64,000 nt of DNA from Paracoccaceae bacterium. Its GTDB lineage: Bacteria; Pseudomonadota; Alphaproteobacteria; Rhodobacterales; Rhodobacteraceae. This document shows positions 15,506 to 25,871 of this stretch, in pieces (the stretch's first letter is position 1; each line of letters begins with the position of its first letter). The notes under the pieces were generated by a model. It was not told the origin of the DNA and did not search any database. It saw only the letters and a program-made list of their open reading frames with translations. The translations under genes were made by a program, and so were the position numbers. Location of the stretch: positions 1 through 64,000 of the forward strand of contig SBGD01000014.1 in the NCBI GenBank assembly GCA_006226775.1. Reading direction: 5' to 3'.

Positions 15506-16927
15506 TCACGCGCTTTCCGCCCGCCAGTCGCCGAACCCCAGCATGAGGTAGTCGCGGGGATAGGCGGCGCGGGCCCTGGCTTCCAGGTCGGCGTCGTAAA
15601 TCTCGCTCAGCGCGAAGGGCACCTCTGCCGCCGGATCCGGCATCTCCGGCACCTCGGCCACGCCCAGTTGCTGCGCCACGGCGGGCAGGAAGGCCGCCAT
15701 TTCTTCCTCCCGCAGCACCAGGTCGGGCAAGCTCAACTCGCCCATGCCCTGCAGGATCGCCGCCTGGCTGGCCCAATGCGGATCGACCCGCAGGTTGGTC
15801 TGCCCGGCGAGGTTGGCGCGGATGAAATCGAGAAACCCGCCGAAGGCCGCGCGATGGGTGTCGCGGTCATAACCGGCATCGGGCCAGCGCTCGGGGATCG
15901 GCAGGTCATGGCGGTTGACCAGCACCCGGCGAATCCGGCCAAAGGTGTCCGGCCCCTTGGGCAGGATCCGCGTGCAGAAGACGTGATGCGCCCGCGCCAG
16001 CGGATGGCGCAGCACGGTAAAGCGCCGGTGGCCGGGGTGCTTGCGCAGCCAGTGCCGCAGCGCTTTCTGGTTGAAATCGCCCTTTACCTCACCGCCCAAT
16101 TGCGCCAGCCAGCCGGTGACTTCGGCCTCAGGCCCGCCCTTGATCGGCATGTAGAGCAGGGGCGCCGCCCCCGCCGCGACGTAGCCCGGCACCGCCGCGC
16201 CGCGCCGCGGTTCGAAATTCGGGGTGCGCGACAGGTCGAAACGGTCCAGTTGCGCCAGCGCGCGCTCCATCTCGTCGAAATTCTCGACCTTTTCGGCAAT
16301 GGCGCTGGGGTTCTGGCGCTTGAGGTTGTGATCGAACCCCTCCAGCCGCGCCGTAGAGCCCAGCCAGGCCGCCAGCCCGTTCATGATGCCGACGTCCTGC
16401 ACATCCTCGTAGGCGACGTAGAAGGCGGTCTGCCCGCGCCGCTGCAACCCGTTCAGCAGGCGGACCTGGAAGCCCTGCAATGTCTCCAGATGCGCCTCGA
16501 ACTCCGCCCGGTCAAAGCGCGCCCGGGCATCCTTGCGTTTCGCCACATTGGTCAGCTTCCACTGGTCGGTGGCCTGGGCGATCTTCCAGCTGACGTAGCT
16601 GTCGACCGGGTTGCGGGTCAGCACGATCTTGGCGCAGCGCGCATCGTCGAGCAGCGGCTCGAACACCCGTGGGTCGTGATCGTGAAAATAGCGGAAACCG
16701 CCCAGGCCTTCGGCGTCGCGGATCGCGCGCAGCAGGACAGACGGGTCGGCATCGCGCGCCGCCTGATCGACGCCGAGGATCTCGGTCTTGTTGGGGTAGC
16801 CGATGAAATGCGGATTGAAGGCCTCGCCGTGACAGGTGATGCCGTCATAGAGGTTCAGGTTCGCTTCGAGCAGGTTGGAGCCTGTGCGCATCTCGGCAAA
16901 GACCACGAAGGTATCGAAGGGCGCCAT
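15506..16927 (-). CDS. Two-domain sulfotransferase
   Basis: This 473-residue protein looks like two PAPS-dependent sulfotransferase modules in tandem. The first has a 5'-phosphosulfate loop (residues 13-19, MRTGSNL) and a 3'-phosphate motif (LTRNPVDSYVSW, about 103-114), as in the Stf0 type. The second half has a weaker loop (YMPIKGGPEAEV, about 259) and a clear RHPLARAHHVF segment (about 307) typical of carbohydrate sulfotransferase family 2. Its loop has lost the usual Gly/Ser, so it may bind poorly. It is the last gene of the galU-galE operon, 3 nt after the GT14 gene. It probably sulfates the glycan made there; cysQ nearby would remove the PAP product. Confidence 0.75.
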   Translation of the reverse strand: MAPFDTFVVFAEMRTGSNLLEANLNLYDGITCHGEAFNPHFIGYPNKTEILGVDQAARDADPSVLLRAIRDAEGLGGFRYFHDHDPRVFEPLLDDARCAKIVLTRNPVDSYVSWKIAQATDQWKLTNVAKRKDARARFDRAEFEAHLETLQGFQVRLLNGLQRRGQTAFYVAYEDVQDVGIMNGLAAWLGSTARLEGFDHNLKRQNPSAIAEKVENFDEMERALAQLDRFDLSRTPNFEPRRGAAVPGYVAAGAAPLLYMPIKGGPEAEVTGWLAQLGGEVKGDFNQKALRHWLRKHPGHRRFTVLRHPLARAHHVFCTRILPKGPDTFGRIRRVLVNRHDLPIPERWPDAGYDRDTHRAAFGGFLDFIRANLAGQTNLRVDPHWASQAAILQGMGELSLPDLVLREEEMAAFLPAVAQQLGVAEVPEMPDPAAEVPFALSEIYDADLEARARAAYPRDYLMLGFGDWRAESA

Positions 16928-16930
16928 GTC

Positions 16931-18631
16931 TTACCTCACCAGATAGGGTTTGCGGGCCTGCGGGCGTTGGCCCAGTTCTCGGCCCTCGACGGGGAAATCG
17001 CCCATCAGATAGGGGTGCATCCCCTGGTTCTTGAGGTTCTGCAGGAACTGGCCGAAGCCGGTCAGGTCCTGCATCTTGGGCACCTCGGCCAGCCGGCGCC
17101 CCGAGCGTATGCCGATCTCGTCGATGACGCTTTGCAGGGGCTCCATCGGCGCCTCGATGAATTCCGCCATGGTCCAGATCTTGATCCGCGCCTTGGCATA
17201 GGGCGACCGGTAGGCATCCAGCGCCTCGGCCTCGATCTTCTGCAGCTTGGCGGCGGCGCGGCGGATGGTGGCGAAATCGAGGTTGGACTGGAACAGCGGC
17301 ACCGCCCAGGCGCCCGAGACCACCGAGATCTGGGCATTGGGGTCCTTGGCCATCGGCCAGACCACGTTCTCTTGCGTGTCGAGCGGGCCGAACTGGAAAC
17401 ACTGCCGCTCGCCCCGGGTGTTCCACAGCAGGCTGGTCAGAAAGCTCCAGGGGTCGGCATCGCGGATCGCGGCGCTGTCGGAAATGCCGCCCTGCACCAC
17501 CTTCTCGCCATCGGCAAACTGCGCCTCTTCCGGCCCGAAGAGGTGGCCATGCACCCGCGTGCCGGTGGTGCGCGCGAGCCAGGGCTCGAAATCCTCGAAA
17601 AGCTCGGTAAAGCCCTGGAACACCGAATAGGGCCCCGCCGTCACGCCGTTTTCCCAGTTCTCGTTGGGAAAGCGCGAATGCATGTAAAGCCCCGGCCGCC
17701 CGCGCGTCCGCCGGTCGACCGCCTTGGCAAAGATACGGTCGATCTTGCCGGGGTTGGGCTCCGTGCGGCTCATCGCGCCGGCCTTGTCGGTCAGGAAGGC
17801 GCGATAGAGCAGGTCGGCATGCGGCCAGATCTTGCGCGCCACGAAACAGTCCGAGCGGCGCAGAAGTTGCAGGTGATCGTCGTAGAAGATATGCGGCTTG
17901 CCCTGGAAGTCGAACTTCGACAGCGTCAGCGACCGGCTCTCCATGTCGCGCGAATAGAGCCGCGCGAGGGTCTGGTAGTAGCTTTCGTCGGGAATCCAGA
18001 CGCGCTTGAAATAGCGGTCATAGGTGGCGCGGTCGGGATCCTGCAGGATCGCCGAGAGGGTCTGGCGCGTCAGGCACCACCACTGGCTGCCCATATGCGG
18101 CTTCAACCCGTTGGGAATGCGCCGTTTCAACCCGATGGAGCGCTGGACCTGCACGAACTTGTCGAACAGGAACCGGTGCTGGCGCCAGGAAAACGGGAAG
18201 TGCAGGGTAAAGCGTTCCTCGTCGAGCCCGCCGACCGTCCAGGGCACGTCCACCGTGGTGGCGCTTTCGATGAAATCGGTGCGTGGGCGGGCGGCGAGGT
18301 AGTCGACCAGCTCCTCCACGGGCCGCAGCGGCAGGCAGGACCCGGAGGCGAGGTAGACGTGGCGCACGTCGGGAAACTCCGACAGCATCACCTCGCTCGC
18401 CGCCTGGCTGGCCGCGACGATGCCCCAGGTGCCCCATTCGCAACGGTAGCGTTTCGAGAAGGTCACATGCTCCACATCCGCCAGCGAGGCGGCGAAATCG
18501 CGATAGGCGCGTGCGGGCACCTTGCGGTCGACATGGATCACCACCGGGCAGCCCGCATTGGCCCAATGCCGCGCCACCTGTTCCGCGCGCCAGAAGGCGG
18601 TGTGGACCAGCATGACGACCCCGACGCTCAT
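16931..18631 (-). CDS. Core-2/I-branching (GT14-type) glycosyltransferase with DUF5927-like C-terminal domain
   Basis: This 566-residue protein starts with a GT14 domain (residues 1-260) like the animal beta-1,6-N-acetylglucosaminyltransferases: HVDRKVP, the YRCEWGTWGIV segment, YLASGSCLPLR and MGSQWWCLTR, followed by IPDESYYQTL. The remaining 300 residues have no clear catalytic motif and fit the bacterial extension called DUF5927. It would add a branch to a polysaccharide from a UDP-sugar donor. Its ATG overlaps the stop of the preceding GT2 gene (ATGA), and the sulfotransferase starts 3 nt after its own stop. Confidence 0.78.
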   Translation of the reverse strand: MSVGVVMLVHTAFWRAEQVARHWANAGCPVVIHVDRKVPARAYRDFAASLADVEHVTFSKRYRCEWGTWGIVAASQAASEVMLSEFPDVRHVYLASGSCLPLRPVEELVDYLAARPRTDFIESATTVDVPWTVGGLDEERFTLHFPFSWRQHRFLFDKFVQVQRSIGLKRRIPNGLKPHMGSQWWCLTRQTLSAILQDPDRATYDRYFKRVWIPDESYYQTLARLYSRDMESRSLTLSKFDFQGKPHIFYDDHLQLLRRSDCFVARKIWPHADLLYRAFLTDKAGAMSRTEPNPGKIDRIFAKAVDRRTRGRPGLYMHSRFPNENWENGVTAGPYSVFQGFTELFEDFEPWLARTTGTRVHGHLFGPEEAQFADGEKVVQGGISDSAAIRDADPWSFLTSLLWNTRGERQCFQFGPLDTQENVVWPMAKDPNAQISVVSGAWAVPLFQSNLDFATIRRAAAKLQKIEAEALDAYRSPYAKARIKIWTMAEFIEAPMEPLQSVIDEIGIRSGRRLAEVPKMQDLTGFGQFLQNLKNQGMHPYLMGDFPVEGRELGQRPQARKPYLVR

Positions 18632-19638
18632 GCCCAGTTGCCCTTGGACATCAGCCCGAGGATCTCCAGCTGCCGCCAGTTGATGTATTTCTCGGACCAC
18701 TTGCACCAGAGGTCCGGGTTGTCCTCCATCGTCCTGGCATAGGCCTTGTATTCGACCGAGGCCGAGTAATGCTGCTTGCGTTCGAGTTCCTCGGCCGCCT
18801 TGGCGGTGAACGTATCGAGAAACTTGGTATGGAGCAGGATGCCGCTGGCCTTTTCCCCGCCCCATTCGTCGTAAACGAGGTTCAGCCCGCGCGGCAGAAG
18901 CATGTGCGTGGAGCTGACATAGGTGTATTTCCGGTCCCATTTGACCAGCGGTATCTTGTTGAGCGCCGGGGCCTTGGCGGGCATGTCCGGAAAGAACACA
19001 CGCCTGCGCGGCCCGCCCTGGATCCACAGGTTGCCGTAGACCGGGTTGCGGTCGATGGCGTAATTGCCGCTGTCGAACCAGCAGGCAATGTCGAGCGGGT
19101 TGTCGCCGGGCAGATAGGGCTGCGCGTTGATCGGCCCCTTGGGGTACATGTCCAGCAGCATCGCCGAAAACGACCGGATCGACGAGGCATCCAGCCAGTC
19201 GGTCAGCGCGCGCAGGGGCCGCGTGTCGCAAAACGGAAACAGGAAGAACTCATCCGGGTCGACGGTCAGCGCCCAATGCCCATGCGCGTGCTTGCGCGCC
19301 AGCCAGTTGAGCCAGTCGACGCCGAACCGCGACCGCTTGTAACTGGCGCGGCTGTGCCAGAGCGAGACATCGGGCTGCTCCATCAGGTATTCATAGCCGC
19401 CATCGGTGCTGTCATTGTCGACCATCAGGAAATGGTTGACGCCCAGGTCGCGGTAATAGCGCAGGAAATAGGGCAGGCGGACATGTTCGTTGCGGAAGGT
19501 GGACAGCACCAGCAGATCGCCGGGCCGGATGTTGTCGGTCCGGTCCGAGGCGGCGCGCAATTCCCGGCGCTTGCGCAGGGCGCGCACGCGCCAGCGCTTG
19601 CGCTGAAGCCGCAGGCGGTATGATTGCCAGGCGCCCAA
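18628..19638 (-). CDS. Glycosyltransferase family 2-like protein
   Basis: This 336-residue protein belongs to the GT2-like group with a single compact GT-A domain. NHFLMVDNDSTDGG (about residue 70) is the nucleotide-binding strand, and VDPDEFF (about 125) is the DxD metal site. An HxxxH-like STHMLLPRG follows. The only usable start is TTG 19638: an in-frame TAA lies just upstream and GAGGGA gives a ribosome-binding site. It is the fourth gene of the leftward galU operon and overlaps the GT14 gene by 4 nt. Donor and acceptor are unknown. Confidence 0.78.
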   Translation of the reverse strand: MGAWQSYRLRLQRKRWRVRALRKRRELRAASDRTDNIRPGDLLVLSTFRNEHVRLPYFLRYYRDLGVNHFLMVDNDSTDGGYEYLMEQPDVSLWHSRASYKRSRFGVDWLNWLARKHAHGHWALTVDPDEFFLFPFCDTRPLRALTDWLDASSIRSFSAMLLDMYPKGPINAQPYLPGDNPLDIACWFDSGNYAIDRNPVYGNLWIQGGPRRRVFFPDMPAKAPALNKIPLVKWDRKYTYVSSTHMLLPRGLNLVYDEWGGEKASGILLHTKFLDTFTAKAAEELERKQHYSASVEYKAYARTMEDNPDLWCKWSEKYINWRQLEILGLMSKGNWA

Positions 19639-19680
19639 TCCCGTCCCTCGTTAACCGTCACGTGATCCGAGCTGTCGTTA

Positions 19681-20898
19681 TCAAACCGAACTTAAGACAA
19701 GGTTGAAATGCTCGTCCCAGCTTGGCGGCACAAAGGCGGTCGCCGGAGGTTTCTGCTCAGTCAATTGTACTATTTTCTTGCGCCAAGAATAGACATCCCC
19801 GCTGGCCAGGTAAATGGGAATGTCTCCAAGGGTTTCGCGATAGATGTCGAGATCACGCACCATGACCGGCACACCCAGCGCCGCGGCCTCGACCGGGGGC
19901 AACCCGTAGCCCTCGGCATGGCTGGGAAACAGCAGCCCCCGCGATCCGCGCAGCAGCGCGGCGATCTGCGCGTCGGACAGGCCCGCGCGTTCCTCGACCA
20001 GCGGGTTGCCGGCGTCGAGCCGGGCAAAGACCGCGTCATTGTTCCAGCCCCGACCGCCGCAGATCAGCAGGCGCGGCGCCGTGGCGCCCTCGGCCGCAAA
20101 CTGATCCCAGACATCCAGCAGCAGCGCATGGTTCTTGCGCGGCTCGATGGTGCCGAGGGTGACGAAATAGGGCGCGGCGGGCAGGGGGCATCGCGGGTCC
20201 GGCGTCACCGCATCGATCCCCAGCGGGGCAACGATGCCGCCGGGAATGCGCCCGAAGGCCTCCATGTGGCGCTGGCAATCGGCCAGGGTGACCTGCGAAT
20301 TGGCGATCACCAGATCGGAGCCTTGCGCTGTACGCGACAGGAAGTGCTTGAACTTGCGCAGGGTTTCGGGGCGCTGGTACTGCGGGAAATCCAGCGGGAT
20401 GGTGTCATGCACCAGCACCGCGATGCGCGCGCCGGGCACGCGGCCAAGCCCGCTCAGCACCCGGTCGGTCAGGTTGGAATGGCCGGTGTTGAGATAGCTG
20501 ACCCCCTCGGGCAGATGCCGCCGCAGCATCGCGCCCAGCCCCTGGGGCAGGCAGCGCGCCCGCGCGTGGCGGCGCAGCGCGGCCTCGGCCTGGCGCCGCG
20601 CCAAGGGACCGCGCGGCACGATCCGGCCCAGCGCATCCAGCGGGCCCCAGTCCTCGGCGCGGGCGCAGGCGAGGATCGCCGCGGCGCCGTCGGGCCCGAG
20701 CAGCACATAGCCGATCCGCGTCCGGGCCAGCGCAAACAGCGGCACCGCATCGGCCACCAGCGCCCGCAGATAGGCGAACTCCACCCGGTCGACCCCGGTC
20801 ATCGGCCGCCCGGCCCGCCGGATCAGCCGCGTGATGTCGAGACAGCGCGCGGGGGGATCAGCGCTCGTAATGGCCGCTCTGGTGCCAGCGCCAGGCAT
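19681..20898 (-). CDS. Glycosyltransferase family 4 (GT-B fold)
   Basis: This 405-residue glycosyltransferase has the C-terminal GT4 motifs FVTLGTIEPRKNHALLLDV and FPSHAEGYGLPPVEAAALGV, where the second holds the donor-binding E-x7-E. The N-terminal region has VHDTIPLDFPQY, often seen in mannosyl- and rhamnosyltransferases. A rare CLDITRLIRRAG start with TGVDRVE matches similar enzymes. The ATG at 20898 lies 41 nt inside galE, so the two are coupled. The ribosome-binding site is weak, so the start may be slightly different. Confidence 0.82.
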   Translation of the reverse strand: MPGAGTRAAITSADPPARCLDITRLIRRAGRPMTGVDRVEFAYLRALVADAVPLFALARTRIGYVLLGPDGAAAILACARAEDWGPLDALGRIVPRGPLARRQAEAALRRHARARCLPQGLGAMLRRHLPEGVSYLNTGHSNLTDRVLSGLGRVPGARIAVLVHDTIPLDFPQYQRPETLRKFKHFLSRTAQGSDLVIANSQVTLADCQRHMEAFGRIPGGIVAPLGIDAVTPDPRCPLPAAPYFVTLGTIEPRKNHALLLDVWDQFAAEGATAPRLLICGGRGWNNDAVFARLDAGNPLVEERAGLSDAQIAALLRGSRGLLFPSHAEGYGLPPVEAAALGVPVMVRDLDIYRETLGDIPIYLASGDVYSWRKKIVQLTEQKPPATAFVPPSWDEHFNLVLSSV

Positions 20899-21847
20899 CG
20901 CGGATCATCGCCTCCATGTTCGACCGGGAGGGCCGCCAGCCCAGCTCCTGCACCGCGCGCGACGAACCGGAGACCAGTTTCGTGGCATCGCCCGCCCGCC
21001 GCTCGCCGATCTGGTGCGGCACCTCGCGGTTGGTGACATTGTGCGACTGGGCAATCACCTCGAAGACCGAAAACCCGGTGCCGGTGCCCAGGTTGAACAC
21101 CCGGCTGCCCTTGCCCGCCTCGAGCCATTTCAGCCCCAGCACATGAGCATCCACCAGGTCGCAGACATGCACATAGTCGCGGATGCAGGTGCCGTCGGGC
21201 GTGTCGTAATCGGTGCCGAAGACGGTCAGCGCGGCGCGCTTGCCGTCGATGGCGTCCAGCATCAGCGGGATCAGGTGCGTCTCGGGACGGTGGAACTCGC
21301 CCACCTCGCCCTCGGGATCGGCGCCGGCGACGTTGAAATAGCGGAAGATGACGTGCCGCAGCCCGTGGCTGGCACCGAAGTCCTCCAGCATGTCTTCGAT
21401 GGCGCGCTTGGATTTTCCATAGGAATTCAGCGGCTTTTGCGTCGTGTCCTCGTCCAGCACCACGTTGTCATGATCGCCATAGGTCGCACAGGTCGAGGAA
21501 AAGACGAAGTCGAGACACCCGGCGTCGACCGCCGCCTCGATCAGGTTGAGCGAGCCCGCGACATTGTTGCGCCAGTAGAGCCCGGGGTTGGCCATCGCCT
21601 CGCCCACGAGGCTGAGCGCGGCAAAATGCATCACCGCCTGTGGCCGGACCTCGGCAAAGACCGCGTCCAGCCGCGCGCGATCCAGCAGGTCGCCGCGGGC
21701 CAGCGGGCCGAACCGGACCGCCTGTTCCCAGCCGGTCGAGATATTGTCGAAGGTGACGGGGGTATAGCCCGCCGCGCGCAGCGCCTTGCAGGCGTGCGAC
21801 CCGATGTATCCGGCGCCGCCGGTGACGAGAATATTGCCCCTGGACAT
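20858..21847 (-). CDS. galE: UDP-glucose 4-epimerase
   Basis: This 329-residue extended SDR interconverts UDP-glucose and UDP-galactose using bound NAD. The cofactor motif TGGAGYIGSHACKAL is at the N-terminus, the catalytic Tyr/Lys in SYGKSKRAIED and the Ser/Thr in FSSTCATYG. It follows galU after 6 nt and overlaps the GT4 gene. Together these two supply nucleotide sugars to the downstream glycosyltransferases. Confidence 0.93.
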   Translation of the reverse strand: MSRGNILVTGGAGYIGSHACKALRAAGYTPVTFDNISTGWEQAVRFGPLARGDLLDRARLDAVFAEVRPQAVMHFAALSLVGEAMANPGLYWRNNVAGSLNLIEAAVDAGCLDFVFSSTCATYGDHDNVVLDEDTTQKPLNSYGKSKRAIEDMLEDFGASHGLRHVIFRYFNVAGADPEGEVGEFHRPETHLIPLMLDAIDGKRAALTVFGTDYDTPDGTCIRDYVHVCDLVDAHVLGLKWLEAGKGSRVFNLGTGTGFSVFEVIAQSHNVTNREVPHQIGERRAGDATKLVSGSSRAVQELGWRPSRSNMEAMIRDAWRWHQSGHYER

Positions 21848-21853
21848 GCGGCT

Positions 21854-22750
21854 CTACTGCGCTGCCTTTTCTTGCGACATCAACTGCTGGAGATAGCCGT
21901 AGAGGTCGTCGCGCAATTCCTCGCGCGCCAGCCCGAAGGACACGGTGGCCTGCAGGAACCCGGCCTTCGAGCCGCAATCGAAGCGCTGGCCGCGGAAACG
22001 ATAGCCCGAGACCTTGCGGCCTTCCTCGATCTCCTGGGCGATGGCGTCGGTCAACTGGATCTCGCCACCCGCGCCCTGTTTCATCTTGTGCAGGTTCTTC
22101 AGCACGTCCGGCGTGATGATGTAGCGCCCGATCACGGCGAGGTTCGACGGCGCTGCCTCGACCTCCGGCTTTTCGACCATGCCCTTGACCGAGATCAGGT
22201 TGCCCTCTTCGCCCGCCACGTCGAGGATGCCGTAGGACGAGGTCTTGTCATGCGGCACTTCCATCGCGGCGACCATCGAGCCGCCGACTTCCTCGTAGGC
22301 CTCCACCATCTGTTGCAGACAGGGCTTTTCCGCCGCGATCACGTCATCGGGCAGCATCACCGCGAAAGGCTCGTTGCCGATCAGCCGCCGGGCGCACCAG
22401 ACCGCGTGACCCAGGCCCATCGCCTTGTGCTGGCGGATATAGGCAATCGCGCCGCTTTCCATGTTGGTGGACTTGAGGATTTCCAGAAGCTCGGTCTTGC
22501 CCTTCTTCTTCAACTCCTGCTCGAGCGCGGGCGCGAGGTCGAAGTAATCCTCCAGCGCGCCCTTGCCGCGCGAGGTGACGAAGATGAATTCCTTGATCCC
22601 CGCGGCGCGGGCCTCGTCGATGGCGTATTGGATCAGAGGGCGGTCGACTAGGGTCATGATTTCCTTGGGCACCGATTTGGTCGCCGGAAGAAACCGTGTG
22701 CCCAGCCCTGCGACCGGAAAAATCGCCTTTGTCACTTTGTTACGCATCAC
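21854..22750 (-). CDS. galU: UTP-glucose-1-phosphate uridylyltransferase
   Basis: This 298-residue nucleotidyltransferase makes UDP-glucose from UTP and glucose-1-phosphate. The N-terminal signature VAGLGTRFLPATKSVPKEIM and later VMLPDDVIAA are typical; FDCGSKAGFLQA near the C-terminus matches GalU. It is the first gene of a six-gene leftward operon ending with the sulfotransferase at 15506. The 91-bp gap upstream should hold its promoter, but I could not pick convincing boxes. Confidence 0.94.
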   Translation of the reverse strand: MMRNKVTKAIFPVAGLGTRFLPATKSVPKEIMTLVDRPLIQYAIDEARAAGIKEFIFVTSRGKGALEDYFDLAPALEQELKKKGKTELLEILKSTNMESGAIAYIRQHKAMGLGHAVWCARRLIGNEPFAVMLPDDVIAAEKPCLQQMVEAYEEVGGSMVAAMEVPHDKTSSYGILDVAGEEGNLISVKGMVEKPEVEAAPSNLAVIGRYIITPDVLKNLHKMKQGAGGEIQLTDAIAQEIEEGRKVSGYRFRGQRFDCGSKAGFLQATVSFGLAREELRDDLYGYLQQLMSQEKAAQ

Positions 22751-22778
22751 TTGTCCTCAAATCATGGTCGCGGTCCTG

Positions 22779-22814
22779 CCGTTCCCTTGACCATGCCGGG
22801 CACGGGGGGAACGG
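22779..22814. terminator. Hairpin between two glycosyltransferase units
   Basis: CCGTTCCC (22779-22786) and GGGAACGG (22807-22814) form a perfect 8-bp stem with a 20-nt loop. It lies just beyond the stop of the leftward GT2 gene at 22842 and just before galU. It may end the cysQ-GT2 transcript or sit in the galU leader. There is no T-tract. Confidence 0.4.
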
Positions 22815-22841
22815 GCAAGGGGGATCGGCGCAGTTGGTTGC

Positions 22842-24077
22842 CTACTGTGGCGCGGTCAATCCACGCACCCGCTTCACCCGCTCAAGCTCGGCGCGGCATT
22901 TGTCGCGCAACCGGCGCAGGCGAAACAGCGGCTCGCCGCGCTCCATCCGGCCGAATTGCCCGCCGCGATGCTCCCAGAAGCCCTGGTCGGTGAACCGCAC
23001 GCGGCCATAGAGCGCGGTGAAGGAAAAGAGCAGCACGGTCGTGCCATGCCCCGCCGCCACATCATGTGCGGCGATCTGCCGGAGCTTCGCGCGATGGCGC
23101 CAGCGCCCGGTATGCACCCGCGGGGCCAGGCGCGGCTTTTGCGGGCGCGGGGCAAAGGCAGCCGCGGCATGGCCCAGCGCCGGCATCGGCGTGGGCGCGC
23201 GGCCGCGGCCCTCGGCAAAGCCGGCCTGCAGCCGCGCCAGCAGGCGGCGCACCTCGCCCGGCTCCAGCCGCCCCGCCACCATGTGCCGCAAAAGGCGGCG
23301 GCGCTGTTCCTCGGCGAACGCGGCCTCAAATCCTTCGCGCTGCGGCGCCGGGCAATGGCGCAGCAGGAATGCCGCATGGCTCGCCCCGATCTCGAACAGA
23401 TCGCGCGGCACCCGGTCAGCCCTGCGCCGGGCGCTTTCGGCAAAGCCGTGATGCACCTCGGCGCGCGGCACGATGGCGGTGGCATGGCCGGCCCGCGCCA
23501 GCCGCATGTTCAGATCGGTCTCGTCGAGAAAGAAGCGGAAGGCCGGGTCGAAACCGCCCAGCCCGCAAAGCACCTCGCGCCGGAAGGCCATGTTGGTGCC
23601 CTCGGTCTTGATCGCGCGGCCCTTGGCCGGATGCAGCACCGCGGGCAGGGGGCTGGCCCAGTTCAGATCATGGCGCCGCCCGGCGCAATCGACGGTGGCG
23701 GCGCGCCATTGCCAGCCGATGCCGTTGCGCCCGCGCACGAAGCCGCCGGCGGCGGCAACCTCGTCATCGTCGAAAGCGGCGGCAAGATGGCGCAGCCAGG
23801 TCGGTTCGGGCACCGCGTCATCGTCGATGAAGGCCAGCACATCGCCCGCCGCCAGGCCGATGCCGATATTGCGCGCCAGGCTGATGTTCTCGGTGTCGCA
23901 GGCCGCGGTCTTCAGCCCGTTGCCCAGCGGCGCGGCGGCAAGCCGCTTGAGGCCCGGGCTGTCGGCGACGACCACCACCTCGTAATTCGGGTAATCGATC
24001 TGGCCCACCGCCACGAGGCAGCGTCTGAGCGCCTCGGGTCGGCGGTGCGAGACGATGATGACGCTGACCGGTCGCAT
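22842..24077 (-). CDS. Glycosyltransferase family 2
   Basis: This 411-residue protein begins with a GT2 domain: VSVIIVSHRRPEALRRCL, the donor-site aspartates in LAFIDDDAVPEP (about residue 100) and FFLDETDLNMRL (about 190), where ED/ET is the usual catalytic base region. The last 150 residues are Arg-rich, with no membrane helix. cysQ lies 13 nt upstream on the same strand, so the two are probably one transcript. It likely contributes to the same surface glycan as the downstream galU operon. Confidence 0.8.
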   Translation of the reverse strand: MRPVSVIIVSHRRPEALRRCLVAVGQIDYPNYEVVVVADSPGLKRLAAAPLGNGLKTAACDTENISLARNIGIGLAAGDVLAFIDDDAVPEPTWLRHLAAAFDDDEVAAAGGFVRGRNGIGWQWRAATVDCAGRRHDLNWASPLPAVLHPAKGRAIKTEGTNMAFRREVLCGLGGFDPAFRFFLDETDLNMRLARAGHATAIVPRAEVHHGFAESARRRADRVPRDLFEIGASHAAFLLRHCPAPQREGFEAAFAEEQRRRLLRHMVAGRLEPGEVRRLLARLQAGFAEGRGRAPTPMPALGHAAAAFAPRPQKPRLAPRVHTGRWRHRAKLRQIAAHDVAAGHGTTVLLFSFTALYGRVRFTDQGFWEHRGGQFGRMERGEPLFRLRRLRDKCRAELERVKRVRGLTAPQ

Positions 24078-24090
24078 CGCGGGCGCGCGA

Positions 24091-24897
24091 TCAGGCCGGT
24101 TTCAGATCGACGCCGGGCGCATAGGCGATGAAGAACGGGTTGGCATAGCCCTCCTTGCCATAGGCCAGCGCGGTGTGATCGTCAAAGCGCACCACATGGC
24201 CGCCCGCGCCGCCCAGCACCGCGTGACCGGCGGCAGTGTCCCATTCCATCGTCCGGCCCAGCCGCGGATAGAGATCGGCCTCGCCGGTCGCCAGAAGGCA
24301 GAACTTCAGCGAGGATCCGGCGCTTTTCATGTCGGCGACCTCGTATTTGGCGATATAGTCGTCAGTGGCCTCGTCCCGGTGCGATTTCGACGCCACCACC
24401 ATCAGCCTGGCATTGTCCGGCTCGTTGACCCGGATCGGCGTGGTCTCACCGGGCGTGTCCTTGCTGAAGGGGCCGGTTTCCTCGACCGAATGGCCGACGC
24501 CATTGGTATAGAACAGCCGCCCCCGGGCCGGGGCATAGACCACGCCCCGGGTCGGCACGCCGCTTTCGACGTAGGCGATATTGACGGTGAAATCGCCGCG
24601 CCGCTTGATGAATTCCTTGGTGCCGTCCAGCGGATCGACGATCAGGAAGGTGCCGGCGCGATTCTCGTGGCTGTCGGCCTGTTCCTCGGTCACCAGCGTC
24701 ACGTCGGGAAAGGCCTCGCGCAGCCCGGCCGAGATCAGCGCATCCGCGGCCTCGTCGGCGGCGGTCACCGGGCTGGCGTCGGATTTGGTCTTCACCTCGA
24801 ATTCAGCGAAATCCTTGGAGTCGTAGATCTCCATGATCGCATCCCCGGCCTCGAGCGCCAGTTTCCGCATCACCCGGGTCAGGTCACTGTAGTTCAT
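24091..24897 (-). CDS. cysQ: 3'(2'),5'-bisphosphate nucleotidase
   Basis: This 268-residue inositol monophosphatase-fold enzyme removes the 3'-phosphate of PAP, the by-product of PAPS-dependent sulfation and sulfate reduction. The metal-binding motifs are VTEEQAD, IVDPLDGTKEF and WDTAAGHAVL. The ATG at 24897 has GGAG about 8 nt upstream. Its position beside a glycosyltransferase and close to a sulfotransferase gene suggests that it clears PAP during glycan sulfation. Confidence 0.9.
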   Translation of the reverse strand: MNYSDLTRVMRKLALEAGDAIMEIYDSKDFAEFEVKTKSDASPVTAADEAADALISAGLREAFPDVTLVTEEQADSHENRAGTFLIVDPLDGTKEFIKRRGDFTVNIAYVESGVPTRGVVYAPARGRLFYTNGVGHSVEETGPFSKDTPGETTPIRVNEPDNARLMVVASKSHRDEATDDYIAKYEVADMKSAGSSLKFCLLATGEADLYPRLGRTMEWDTAAGHAVLGGAGGHVVRFDDHTALAYGKEGYANPFFIAYAPGVDLKPA

Positions 24898-25049
24898 CTT
24901 TCGCTCCTTGCGCGGGGCCACGCAGGTGTGTTCATCCGCGGGGCCGCGCTGTTTTGTTGTCAGACCGATCGCCAGCGGTTATGCTCTTCTGCAAACGGAA
25001 CGGCAAGATTTCCGTGCCACAAAGGCAAGAAACAGGCGGAGCAGGCCTC

Positions 25050-25871
25050 ATGTTCGTTCAAAGGCGTCCCAAGACCGCGCTGGAAAGCTTCCTTGCGACG
25101 GTCGAGCTGATCTATCACGGCGCGGTGCGCAACGTGCGCAAGACCCACGGCAATGCCTTCATGTCGATCCTGATGAACGTGCTGCAGACCATCATAATGG
25201 TCATGGTCTTCTATGTCATGTTCACCGTTCTGGGCCTGCGCGGCATGAAGCTGCGCGGCGATTTCATGATCTACATCATGTCCGGCATCTTCCTTTACAT
25301 GACCCATATCAAGACGATGAGCGCGGTGGTCGGCGCCGAGGGGCCGACCTCGCCGATGATGCAGCACGCGCCGATGAACACCATCGTGGCGATCCTGTCG
25401 GGGATGCTCTCGACGCTCTACATCCAGTTCCTGTCAGTGCTGATCGTGCTGTTCATCTATGACGTGGGCTTCGTCGACGTCGAGATCCACGATCCCATCG
25501 GCTGCATCGGCATGATCCTCCTGGCCTGGTTCACCGGGGCGGCGGTGGGCATGGTGTTTCTCGCCCTCAAGCCCTGGTTTCCGACGCCGGTCAGCATCGC
25601 CTCCTCGATCTATCAGCGTGCCAACATGATCGCCTCGGGCAAGATGTTCGTGGCCAATACCCTGCCCAGCTACCTGCTGGTGATGTTCGACTGGAACCCG
25701 CTGTTTCACGCCATCGACCAGGCGCGCGGCTATGCCTTCGTCAACTACTTCCCGCGCAACTCTAACCTGGAATACCCGATCTGGCTGGGCATCGCGCTGA
25801 TCACCATCGGGCTGATGGGCGAATTCTATACCCGCCGCCATGCCTCGGCCAGCTGGTCGGCCCGGCGCTGA
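25050..25871 (+). CDS. ABC-2 type permease (polysaccharide export type)
   Basis: This 273-residue inner-membrane protein has about six helices and the general layout of KpsM/Wzm-type polysaccharide export permeases. The C-terminal NPLFHAIDQARGYAFVNY segment resembles the conserved NP..H..E..R motif of that family. It is divergent from cysQ. No ATPase partner (KpsT/Wzt) is present in the window, so it must pair with a subunit encoded elsewhere or have another role. The ATG at 25050 follows GGCGGAGCAGG. Confidence 0.75.
   Translation: MFVQRRPKTALESFLATVELIYHGAVRNVRKTHGNAFMSILMNVLQTIIMVMVFYVMFTVLGLRGMKLRGDFMIYIMSGIFLYMTHIKTMSAVVGAEGPTSPMMQHAPMNTIVAILSGMLSTLYIQFLSVLIVLFIYDVGFVDVEIHDPIGCIGMILLAWFTGAAVGMVFLALKPWFPTPVSIASSIYQRANMIASGKMFVANTLPSYLLVMFDWNPLFHAIDQARGYAFVNYFPRNSNLEYPIWLGIALITIGLMGEFYTRRHASASWSARR

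Follow-up and report, generated by a model that had tools for sequence, protein, structure and literature searches.

The locus at positions 15506-25871 of the DNA analysed here comprises eight genes read leftward and one divergent gene for a KpsM-type ATP-binding cassette (ABC) permease. It lies in a stretch of 64,000 nucleotides (nt), hereafter the window, which covers positions 1 to 64,000 of contig SBGD01000014.1 from a Paracoccaceae bacterium of the family Rhodobacteraceae (assembly GCA_006226775.1). Our analysis indicates that the locus probably supplies the permease and the glycan-building enzymes of a dispersed capsule system whose product would be sulfated, linked to lipid through 3-deoxy-D-manno-octulosonic acid (Kdo) and exported by an ABC transporter. 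An earlier note on this DNA had joined the genes into one pathway for a sulfated, branched polysaccharide, and three findings now support the idea of a single pathway: the gene order is conserved, so is the divergent region, and export genes co-occur with the cluster. In the genome of the window, the glycan locus and its permease lie on one contig (C56 in our numbering), a kpsT-kpsE pair on a second (C92) and kpsS-kpsD-kpsC on a third (C35). As relatives of all parts of the ABC route are thus present, a Kdo-linked sulfated capsule encoded at three loci appears to be the best explanation.

In the ABC-dependent route, according to PMC11041684, the chain is made intracellularly on a lipid carrying Kdo added by KpsS/KpsC, and is exported by KpsMT together with KpsE and KpsD. 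Applied to the present genes, GalU and GalE would supply uridine diphosphate (UDP)-glucose and UDP-galactose, KpsS and KpsC from C35 would set a Kdo primer on lipid, and the glycosyltransferases GT2b, GT4, GT2a and GT14-DUF5927 would extend the chain in the cytoplasm. A two-domain sulfotransferase could then transfer sulfate from 3'-phosphoadenosine 5'-phosphosulfate (PAPS) onto the chain while CysQ clears the resulting 3'-phosphoadenosine 5'-phosphate (PAP). The KpsM of the window, working with the unlinked KpsT of C92, would carry the polymer over the inner membrane, and KpsE (C92) and KpsD (C35) would bring it to the cell surface. We infer the sequence of these steps, the joint action of the proteins, a Kdo lipid at the end of the chain and sulfation of the product. 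The absence of a polymerase, pointed out in the earlier note, holds at the locus: neither Wzx nor Wzy was found among the nine proteins of 15506-25871, the part of the genome searched for them. Nor would one expect a separate polymerase where export depends on an ABC transporter, since cytoplasmic transferases would grow the chain and a Wzy polymerase would not be needed.

Gene content and order of the locus

The leftward genes (15506-24897, minus strand) are, in order of transcription, cysQ (24091-24897), encoding a 3'(2'),5'-bisphosphate nucleotidase for PAP removal; a GT2 glycosyltransferase gene, here GT2b (22842-24077; PF13641 and PF00535); galU (21854-22747), for UTP-glucose-1-phosphate uridylyltransferase; galE (20858-21847), for UDP-glucose 4-epimerase; a GT4 glycosyltransferase gene (19681-20898; PF00534 and PF13692); GT2a (18628-19638), for a GT2 enzyme of the Glyco_tranf_2_4 type (PF13704, 115.9 bits); BR (16931-18631), for a GT14 (Branch) glycosyltransferase of 566 amino acids (aa) fused to DUF5927 (PF02485, 66.4 bits; PF19349, 526.9 bits); and ST (15506-16927), for a sulfotransferase of 473 aa. 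The kpsM-type ABC-2 capsule permease gene (25050-25871, plus strand; PF01061, 28.5 bits, cut-off 26.9) is separated from cysQ by a divergent control region of 152 nt (24898-25049). Open reading frames (ORFs) together with Pfam and NCBIfam profiles recovered in place every gene that the earlier note had named. The families to which it had assigned UDP-sugar supply and PAP removal also hold, GalU (TIGR01099, 343.1 bits), GalE (TIGR01179, 409 bits) and CysQ (TIGR01331, 251.6 bits) exceeding their curated cut-offs of 326.8, 262.3 and 228.8 bits.

The tight packing of the unit is borne out by measurement: GT2a and BR overlap by 4 nt, and gaps of 3, 6 and 42 nt separate BR from ST, galU from galE and GT4 from GT2a. 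In relatives, the junctions among ST, BR and GT2a have medians of 5.5 and -4 nt (n=60 each, the latter set including two above 60 nt), the galU-galE gap a median of 10.5 nt (n=36) and the GT4-GT2a gap one of 48 nt (n=39). An overlap of 41 nt between the GT4 ORF and galE holds only with the first ATG of GT4, the true start of which may lie downstream of 20898; likely starts are at 22747 for galU, 24897 for cysQ and 25050 for the permease. CysQ and the second GT2 gene had been described as standing next to the unit. They are indeed adjacent, about 91-94 nt separating GT2b from galU and 13 nt separating it from cysQ on the same strand, but they are not separate, as both are part of the conserved leftward unit.

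This conservation was established in 60 mapped loci from different genomes, hand-picked on long contigs among the better-scoring places listed, with order being that of detected homologues. ST, BR and GT2a stand in that order in all 60. CysQ and the divergent permease are each present in 59 (the remaining locus is cut by a contig end), galU is found in 57, and galE occupies its usual position in 37; two loci have just a weak galE-like match, on the opposite side of galU. The interval between GT2a and cysQ exists in two versions, one with GT4 and GT2b, always together (39/60), and one with a second GT2a-type enzyme (21/60). This second enzyme occurs together with GT2b at two loci among the 80 named ones, which are the best 80 of at least 596 and several of which end at contig borders. 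The same best 80 all belong to Rhodobacteraceae (e.g. Roseovarius, Sulfitobacter, Ruegeria, Tateyamaria and Salipiger), the closest being Marinovum algicola at 86% identity. Among 20 lower-scoring loci, picked from 30 genomes and mixing weak with moderate matches, 17 retain the core set of BR, GT2a, galU, cysQ and permease. The co-conservation proposed as a check in the earlier note is therefore found in both samples, and 246 of the 295 family genomes carry the DUF5927 marker. One metagenome-assembled relative (L210, 2272-5630) has a pair of genes inserted between GT2b and galU, one of them KpsD-like (30% identity). Beyond kpsM, some relatives have small ORFs that by eye look SH3-like (L032, 17437-18030) or AlkB-like (L151, 391-1017; L152, 11060-11689; L153, 5082-5693).

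One could argue that this order is mere synteny of a slowly evolving chromosomal region without common function, all the more as the usual flanking genes of relatives, lptC-lptA-lptB-hpf-ptsN on one side (50-52/60) and dnaK on the other (47/60), are often syntenic too. The window is instead flanked by TetR and hisH genes on one side and by MltB and radC genes on the other, and within the ~20 kb examined around the cluster in the 60 relatives, hisH and TetR never occur, MltB occurs twice and radC six times, in contrast to ST, BR, GT2a, galU, cysQ and the permease, each at 57-60 of the 60 loci. The rarity of these flank genes beside the cluster elsewhere implies that it has been retained intact despite rearranged surroundings. 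As unlinked kps genes moreover track the cluster across genomes (see below), synteny without function is very improbable.

The divergent region itself is conserved, the interval between cysQ and kpsM, taken from match end to match end, spanning 117-214 nt in the window and 59 other loci. Towards kpsM, a sigma70-like promoter (TTGTCA-N17-TATGCT) could be read by eye within 24898-25049. Just after it lies a conserved motif of 21 nt (24995-25015, plus strand), ACGGAACGGCAAGATTTCCGT, whose ends form an inverted repeat and whose loop, CAAG, hardly varies, corresponding to a pattern enriched in the control regions of relatives. The pattern ACGGAA-N9-TTCCGT, picked after the enriched words had been seen, occurs within two mismatches in 25 of 60 regions, as compared with 0.6 expected in shuffles. 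CtrA-like and LuxR-box consensus patterns were not above shuffles in this region. One possible role of the motif is that of an operator, another that of an overlapping leftward promoter, and a shared divergent promoter region would fit joint expression of the permease and the operon. No motif of this type was found upstream of the kps genes on C92 or C35; in that part of the genome which was scanned, other two-mismatch matches are scattered (window 2394; L106 8623; L110 1528).

Unlinked export genes and their co-occurrence with the cluster

The earlier note had also stated that no export ATPase is present. This is correct for the locus, where no ATPase gene adjoins the permease, and does not hold genome-wide, as a candidate KpsT is encoded on C92 (11 kb), where no permease was recognised among the ORFs. 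The ATPase absent from the locus is probably that of this unlinked kpsT-kpsE pair. Its best NCBIfam match is VexC (107.3 bits), and the KpsE beside it matches BexC_CtrB_KpsE with 189.1 bits. On C35, KpsS and the repeated KpsC match Capsule_synth (PF05159) with 160.9 and 227.7 bits (cut-off 20), and the gene between them encodes a KpsD/Wza-like exporter (Poly_export, PF02563, 53.1 bits, cut-off 28); VexA ranks second among the NCBIfam matches of the outer-membrane protein of this contig. The window permease has VexB (41.5 bits) and KpsM (32.6 bits) as its only NCBIfam matches, both far below the curated cut-offs. A separate KpsM-KpsE-KpsT set on contig C17 (L107, 1212-4012) belongs to another subfamily: its permease scores higher with KpsM than with VexB and its ATPase is of TagH type, whereas the window permease favours VexB over KpsM and the C92 ATPase resembles VexC. 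All these profile matches, those of C17 included, stay under the curated equivalog cut-offs. Two more Poly_export genes, on contigs C67 and C1 (L109, L110), suggest other exopolysaccharide systems in this genome.

Such dispersal is found in relatives as well. In genomes assembled as single contigs, the three loci are far apart (for instance at 4.15, 3.33 and 2.95 Mb in G141 and at 0.20, 0.91 and 1.42 Mb in G055). KpsT stands beside KpsE on the same strand at 29 of the 30 best-match loci, followed behind kpsE by kdsA at 18 and by a phosphohexomutase gene at 19 (e.g. L156, 5978-10133; L114-L141), an arrangement that is not present on C92. The position of kdsA beside kpsE in many relatives joins Kdo supply to the exporter genes, and in 38 of the 60 mapped relatives the glycan cluster itself includes kdsB, which serves the activation of Kdo. 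The KpsE of C92 (L106, 1124-2929) has 601 aa with the BexC/CtrB/KpsE match beginning at residue 246, that is, with a long N-terminal extension; similar lengths occur in many relatives. At a single locus (L222), a different KpsM/E/T set lies near the cluster.

The separate loci are also linked by their joint distribution. Of the 295 family genomes, 246 (245 of 294 genera) have DUF5927, nearly always in single copy; it was detected in none of 14 control genomes and in four of 289 genomes drawn from the whole class, all four from this family, whose share of the draw is unstated. With cut-offs fixed after the scores had been seen (1e-50 for KpsE, 1e-60 for KpsC) and absences derived from the presence tables by subtraction, DUF5927 and KpsE occur together in 243 of the 295 genomes and are both absent from 38, DUF5927 being alone in three and KpsE in 11; for DUF5927 and KpsC the corresponding numbers are 242, 35, four and 14. 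All three proteins occur in 239 genomes and none of them in 35. Repeating the tables at 1e-20 gave 245 with both, 27 with neither, one with DUF5927 only and 22 with KpsE only in the first comparison, and 242, 33, four and 16 in the second. Among the 49 genomes without DUF5927, seven have a permease match; six of these retain KpsE and KpsC, and the seventh match is weak (25% identity) and comes from a genome lacking all three proteins. The p-values of co-occurrence, 1e-23 to 1e-34, ignore shared ancestry, and without correction for kinship the tie between DUF5927 and the kps genes is a strong association and nothing beyond that.

These data bear on two other explanations. The locus might make or decorate the core or O-antigen of lipopolysaccharide (LPS), with the permease acting as a Wzm served by an unlinked Wzt, and with kdsB, a kpsF-like gene and lptCAB reflecting LPS biology. 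It is true that the cluster borders the lpt genes in most mapped relatives, that Kdo genes also serve LPS and that a solved relative of the sulfotransferase, 9vki, is titled LPS sulfotransferase NodH. Nevertheless, we consider this unlikely, given the strong co-occurrence with the capsule proteins KpsC and KpsE, the restriction of the permease's NCBIfam matches to VexB and KpsM, and the absence of the lpt neighbours in the window, which are hence not obligatory. Alternatively, two systems could overlap: the transferases and the sulfotransferase would make a small sulfated glycolipid or modify some other polymer, and kpsM would be no more than a conserved neighbour at work in an unrelated capsule. 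Genome G237, in which the exporter persists without BR, GT2a and ST, would agree with this, as would the loci that lack ST (four of the best 80 of at least 596 named, and two of the 20 lower-scoring). However, a divergent kpsM heads the unit at 59 of 60 loci across a conserved control region, and among the 246 genomes with DUF5927, KpsE is missing from just three and KpsC from four at the stricter cut-offs, so that overlap of two systems seems improbable.

Several observations nonetheless weigh against a single dispersed sulfated capsule system. G237 retains KpsM, KpsE, KpsC, cysQ and galU after the loss of BR, GT2a and ST from the locus, galU being directly followed by ptsN, and in G148 (L151, 6830-16243) the cluster is broken by genes that look by eye like those of mobile elements, with recombinase- and transposase-like genes between galE and a leftover half of the sulfotransferase gene. 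Three of the 20 lower-scoring loci (L246, L247 and L261) lack part of the core set, and kdsB is not in the window locus, the part of this genome in which it was looked for. No permease of the window type lies within 1.5 kb of KpsT-KpsE at any of the 30 best-match loci. The permease, ATPase and KpsE matches are all under curated NCBIfam cut-offs of 297-437.5 bits, and KpsS reaches 229.7 bits with NF050054 (curated cut-off 600). The 35 genomes negative for all three proteins may represent few clades. Plasmids of Shinella and Rhizobium encode proteins matching the GT14 protein with 31-35% identity over ~70% of its length and reaching into DUF5927; proteins resembling DUF5927 are thus, by sequence, not strictly confined to the family. 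This plasmid search returned 17 records, all below 60% identity and none above 80% coverage, and no plasmid carrying the locus was found in it. Finally, adenosine 5'-phosphosulfate (APS) kinase, the source of PAPS, has a match in 276 of the 295 genomes and none in 10 of the 246 with DUF5927. We had considered it as an independent test of sulfation and dropped it, as it is near-ubiquitous and its association is weak (p 0.001); its distribution says little, hence no support is drawn from it.

The sulfotransferase and the GT14-DUF5927 protein

The product of ST has, on its own, no Pfam match at E<=0.01, the best being Sulfotransfer_2 (E 0.014, 15.9 bits, cut-off 22), and its identity comes from relatives and from its fold. 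In 49 of 49 orthologues, A11, M13-N18 (including R14, T15, G16, S17 and N18), K100, L103, R105 and S113 are invariant; we take R14-N18 to be the 5'-phosphosulfate loop and R105 with S113 to be the 3'-phosphate motif. The profile of these 49 orthologues matches the LPS sulfotransferase NodH 9vki (E=5e-11, positions 7-151). Residues 2-229 of the predicted model (mean predicted local distance difference test score, pLDDT, 88.9; predicted template modelling score 0.57) superpose on the Stf0 sulfotransferase 1tex with Z 13.2 over 191 aligned residues at 3.5 A, and all eight Foldseek matches of the model at E<=0.001 are sulfotransferases. The enzyme named in the earlier note is thus confirmed, by fold and PAPS motifs, as a predicted PAPS-dependent sulfotransferase. 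Behind its Stf0/NodH-like N-terminal half, the protein has a second, Sulfotransfer_2-like half, recognised through Pfam matches in relatives: Sulfotransfer_2 is detected at E<=1 in 41 of the 49 members, in the second half wherever the stretch is shown, and it exceeds the Pfam cut-off in five of 10 relatives scanned singly, the window protein not being among these five. Most likely, therefore, the protein consists of two sulfotransferase-like domains in tandem, the second being assigned by sequence. Profile comparison of the two halves with each other gave no match, nor did that of DUF5927 with either half or with the GT14 domain, the alignments used being of low diversity.

The six cases counted above lack the sulfotransferase gene at the locus under the score cut-offs applied. 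In five ST-less loci examined in detail, all of which keep the GT14-DUF5927 gene (L180, L184, L220, L258 and L259), BR is immediately followed by ptsN in four and by another gene in one. The absence of ST from some loci suggests that sulfate may be added late and optionally, perhaps as decoration of a polymer able to exist without it.

The catalytic half of BR has the fold expected for GT14. Residues 1-285 align with the core-2 GlcNAc-transferase 2gam (Z 23.2, 265 aligned, 2.8 A) and with xylosyltransferase 1, 6eja (Z 20.4, 264 aligned, 3.4 A); unlike this fold search, in which the core-2 enzyme is best, the sequence profile ranks xylosyltransferase first. The mean pLDDT of the whole model is 76.1, with the DUF5927 half less well modelled, and the fold search concerns mainly residues 1-290. 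The GT14 catalytic fold is accordingly confirmed, while branching of the glycan, taken from the GT14 label, is one possibility, the fold fitting a xylosyltransferase as well. DUF5927, which lies C-terminal to the Branch domain, is a Pfam family of unknown function, and no paper on it was found in the literature searched.

Relation to known capsules and significance

The genes of group 2 capsules of Escherichia coli form one contiguous block. The K1 and K5 capsules of this group employ a KpsM-type permease, a KpsT-type ATPase, KpsE, a KpsD-like exporter, KpsS and KpsC, candidate counterparts of which are present in the genome of the window, and need no Wzy. In contrast, the genes described here are found on three contigs, their transferase set is near constant across many genera rather than serotype-variable, and the locus carries a sulfotransferase and cysQ. 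The single-block layout is an arrangement and no mechanistic requirement. The Vi antigen exporter VexABCD is also similar, as VexB and VexC are the top matches of the window permease and the C92 ATPase and VexA the second of the C35 protein, all below curated cut-offs; it differs in its other glycan genes and in the presence here of KpsS and KpsC. At the protein level, ST resembles NodH/LPS and Stf0 sulfotransferases in its N-terminal half, by profile (9vki) and fold (1tex), and adds the Sulfotransfer_2-like half, and BR shares the N-domain fold of core-2 GlcNAc-transferase and xylosyltransferase 1 and differs by its fusion to DUF5927.

Among sulfated capsules, that of Vibrio sp. KMM 8419 is likewise ABC-dependent and combines sulfotransferases, UDP-glucose supply and a PAPS logic (PMC11641403). 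It differs from the present cluster in its assignment to group 3 with a WecA start and in its locus, which comprises 80 genes, includes cysNDC and rhamnose genes, and varies between strains of one species (PMC11641403). Within Rhodobacteraceae, a surface capsule encoded by rcc01081-01086 serves as receptor of the gene transfer agent of Rhodobacter capsulatus; it is listed with the export genes wzc, wzb and wza and is missing in strain 37b4 (PMC10218006). We set it aside as the identity of our locus on the strength of this description, as wzc, wzb and wza would point to a Wzy-type system. No description of the locus was found in the literature searched, most subscription papers lying outside it. 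The parts are all of known kinds, and what is new is their combination into a probable sulfated capsule system of ABC type, with dispersed genes and one set of transferases across the family.

Capsules are known for their variability from strain to strain. A capsule-type cluster of an abundant and mostly marine family, with its marker in 246 of 295 genomes and an order that is near constant wherever mapped, is unusual. It is tempting to go further and to propose, tentatively, a 'common capsule' of Rhodobacteraceae: one sulfated, Kdo-linked polymer made by near-invariant enzymes, with two main glycotypes (GT4 with GT2b, 39/60; second GT2a-type enzyme, 21/60) and an exporter split over three loci. 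The DUF5927-type transferase, with a marker found in more than 240 genera, would define it, and the losable two-domain sulfotransferase would give natural unsulfated variants. If this possibility proved true, a dominant marine family would have its own counterpart of the enterobacterial common antigen, and its phages and gene transfer agents a candidate conserved receptor. The system is also genetics-friendly, with mostly single-copy genes and natural relatives that have no sulfotransferase at the locus. Should its product be sulfated, it would constitute a widespread bacterial source of marine sulfated glycan and, probably, a layer with which phages and gene transfer agents make contact.

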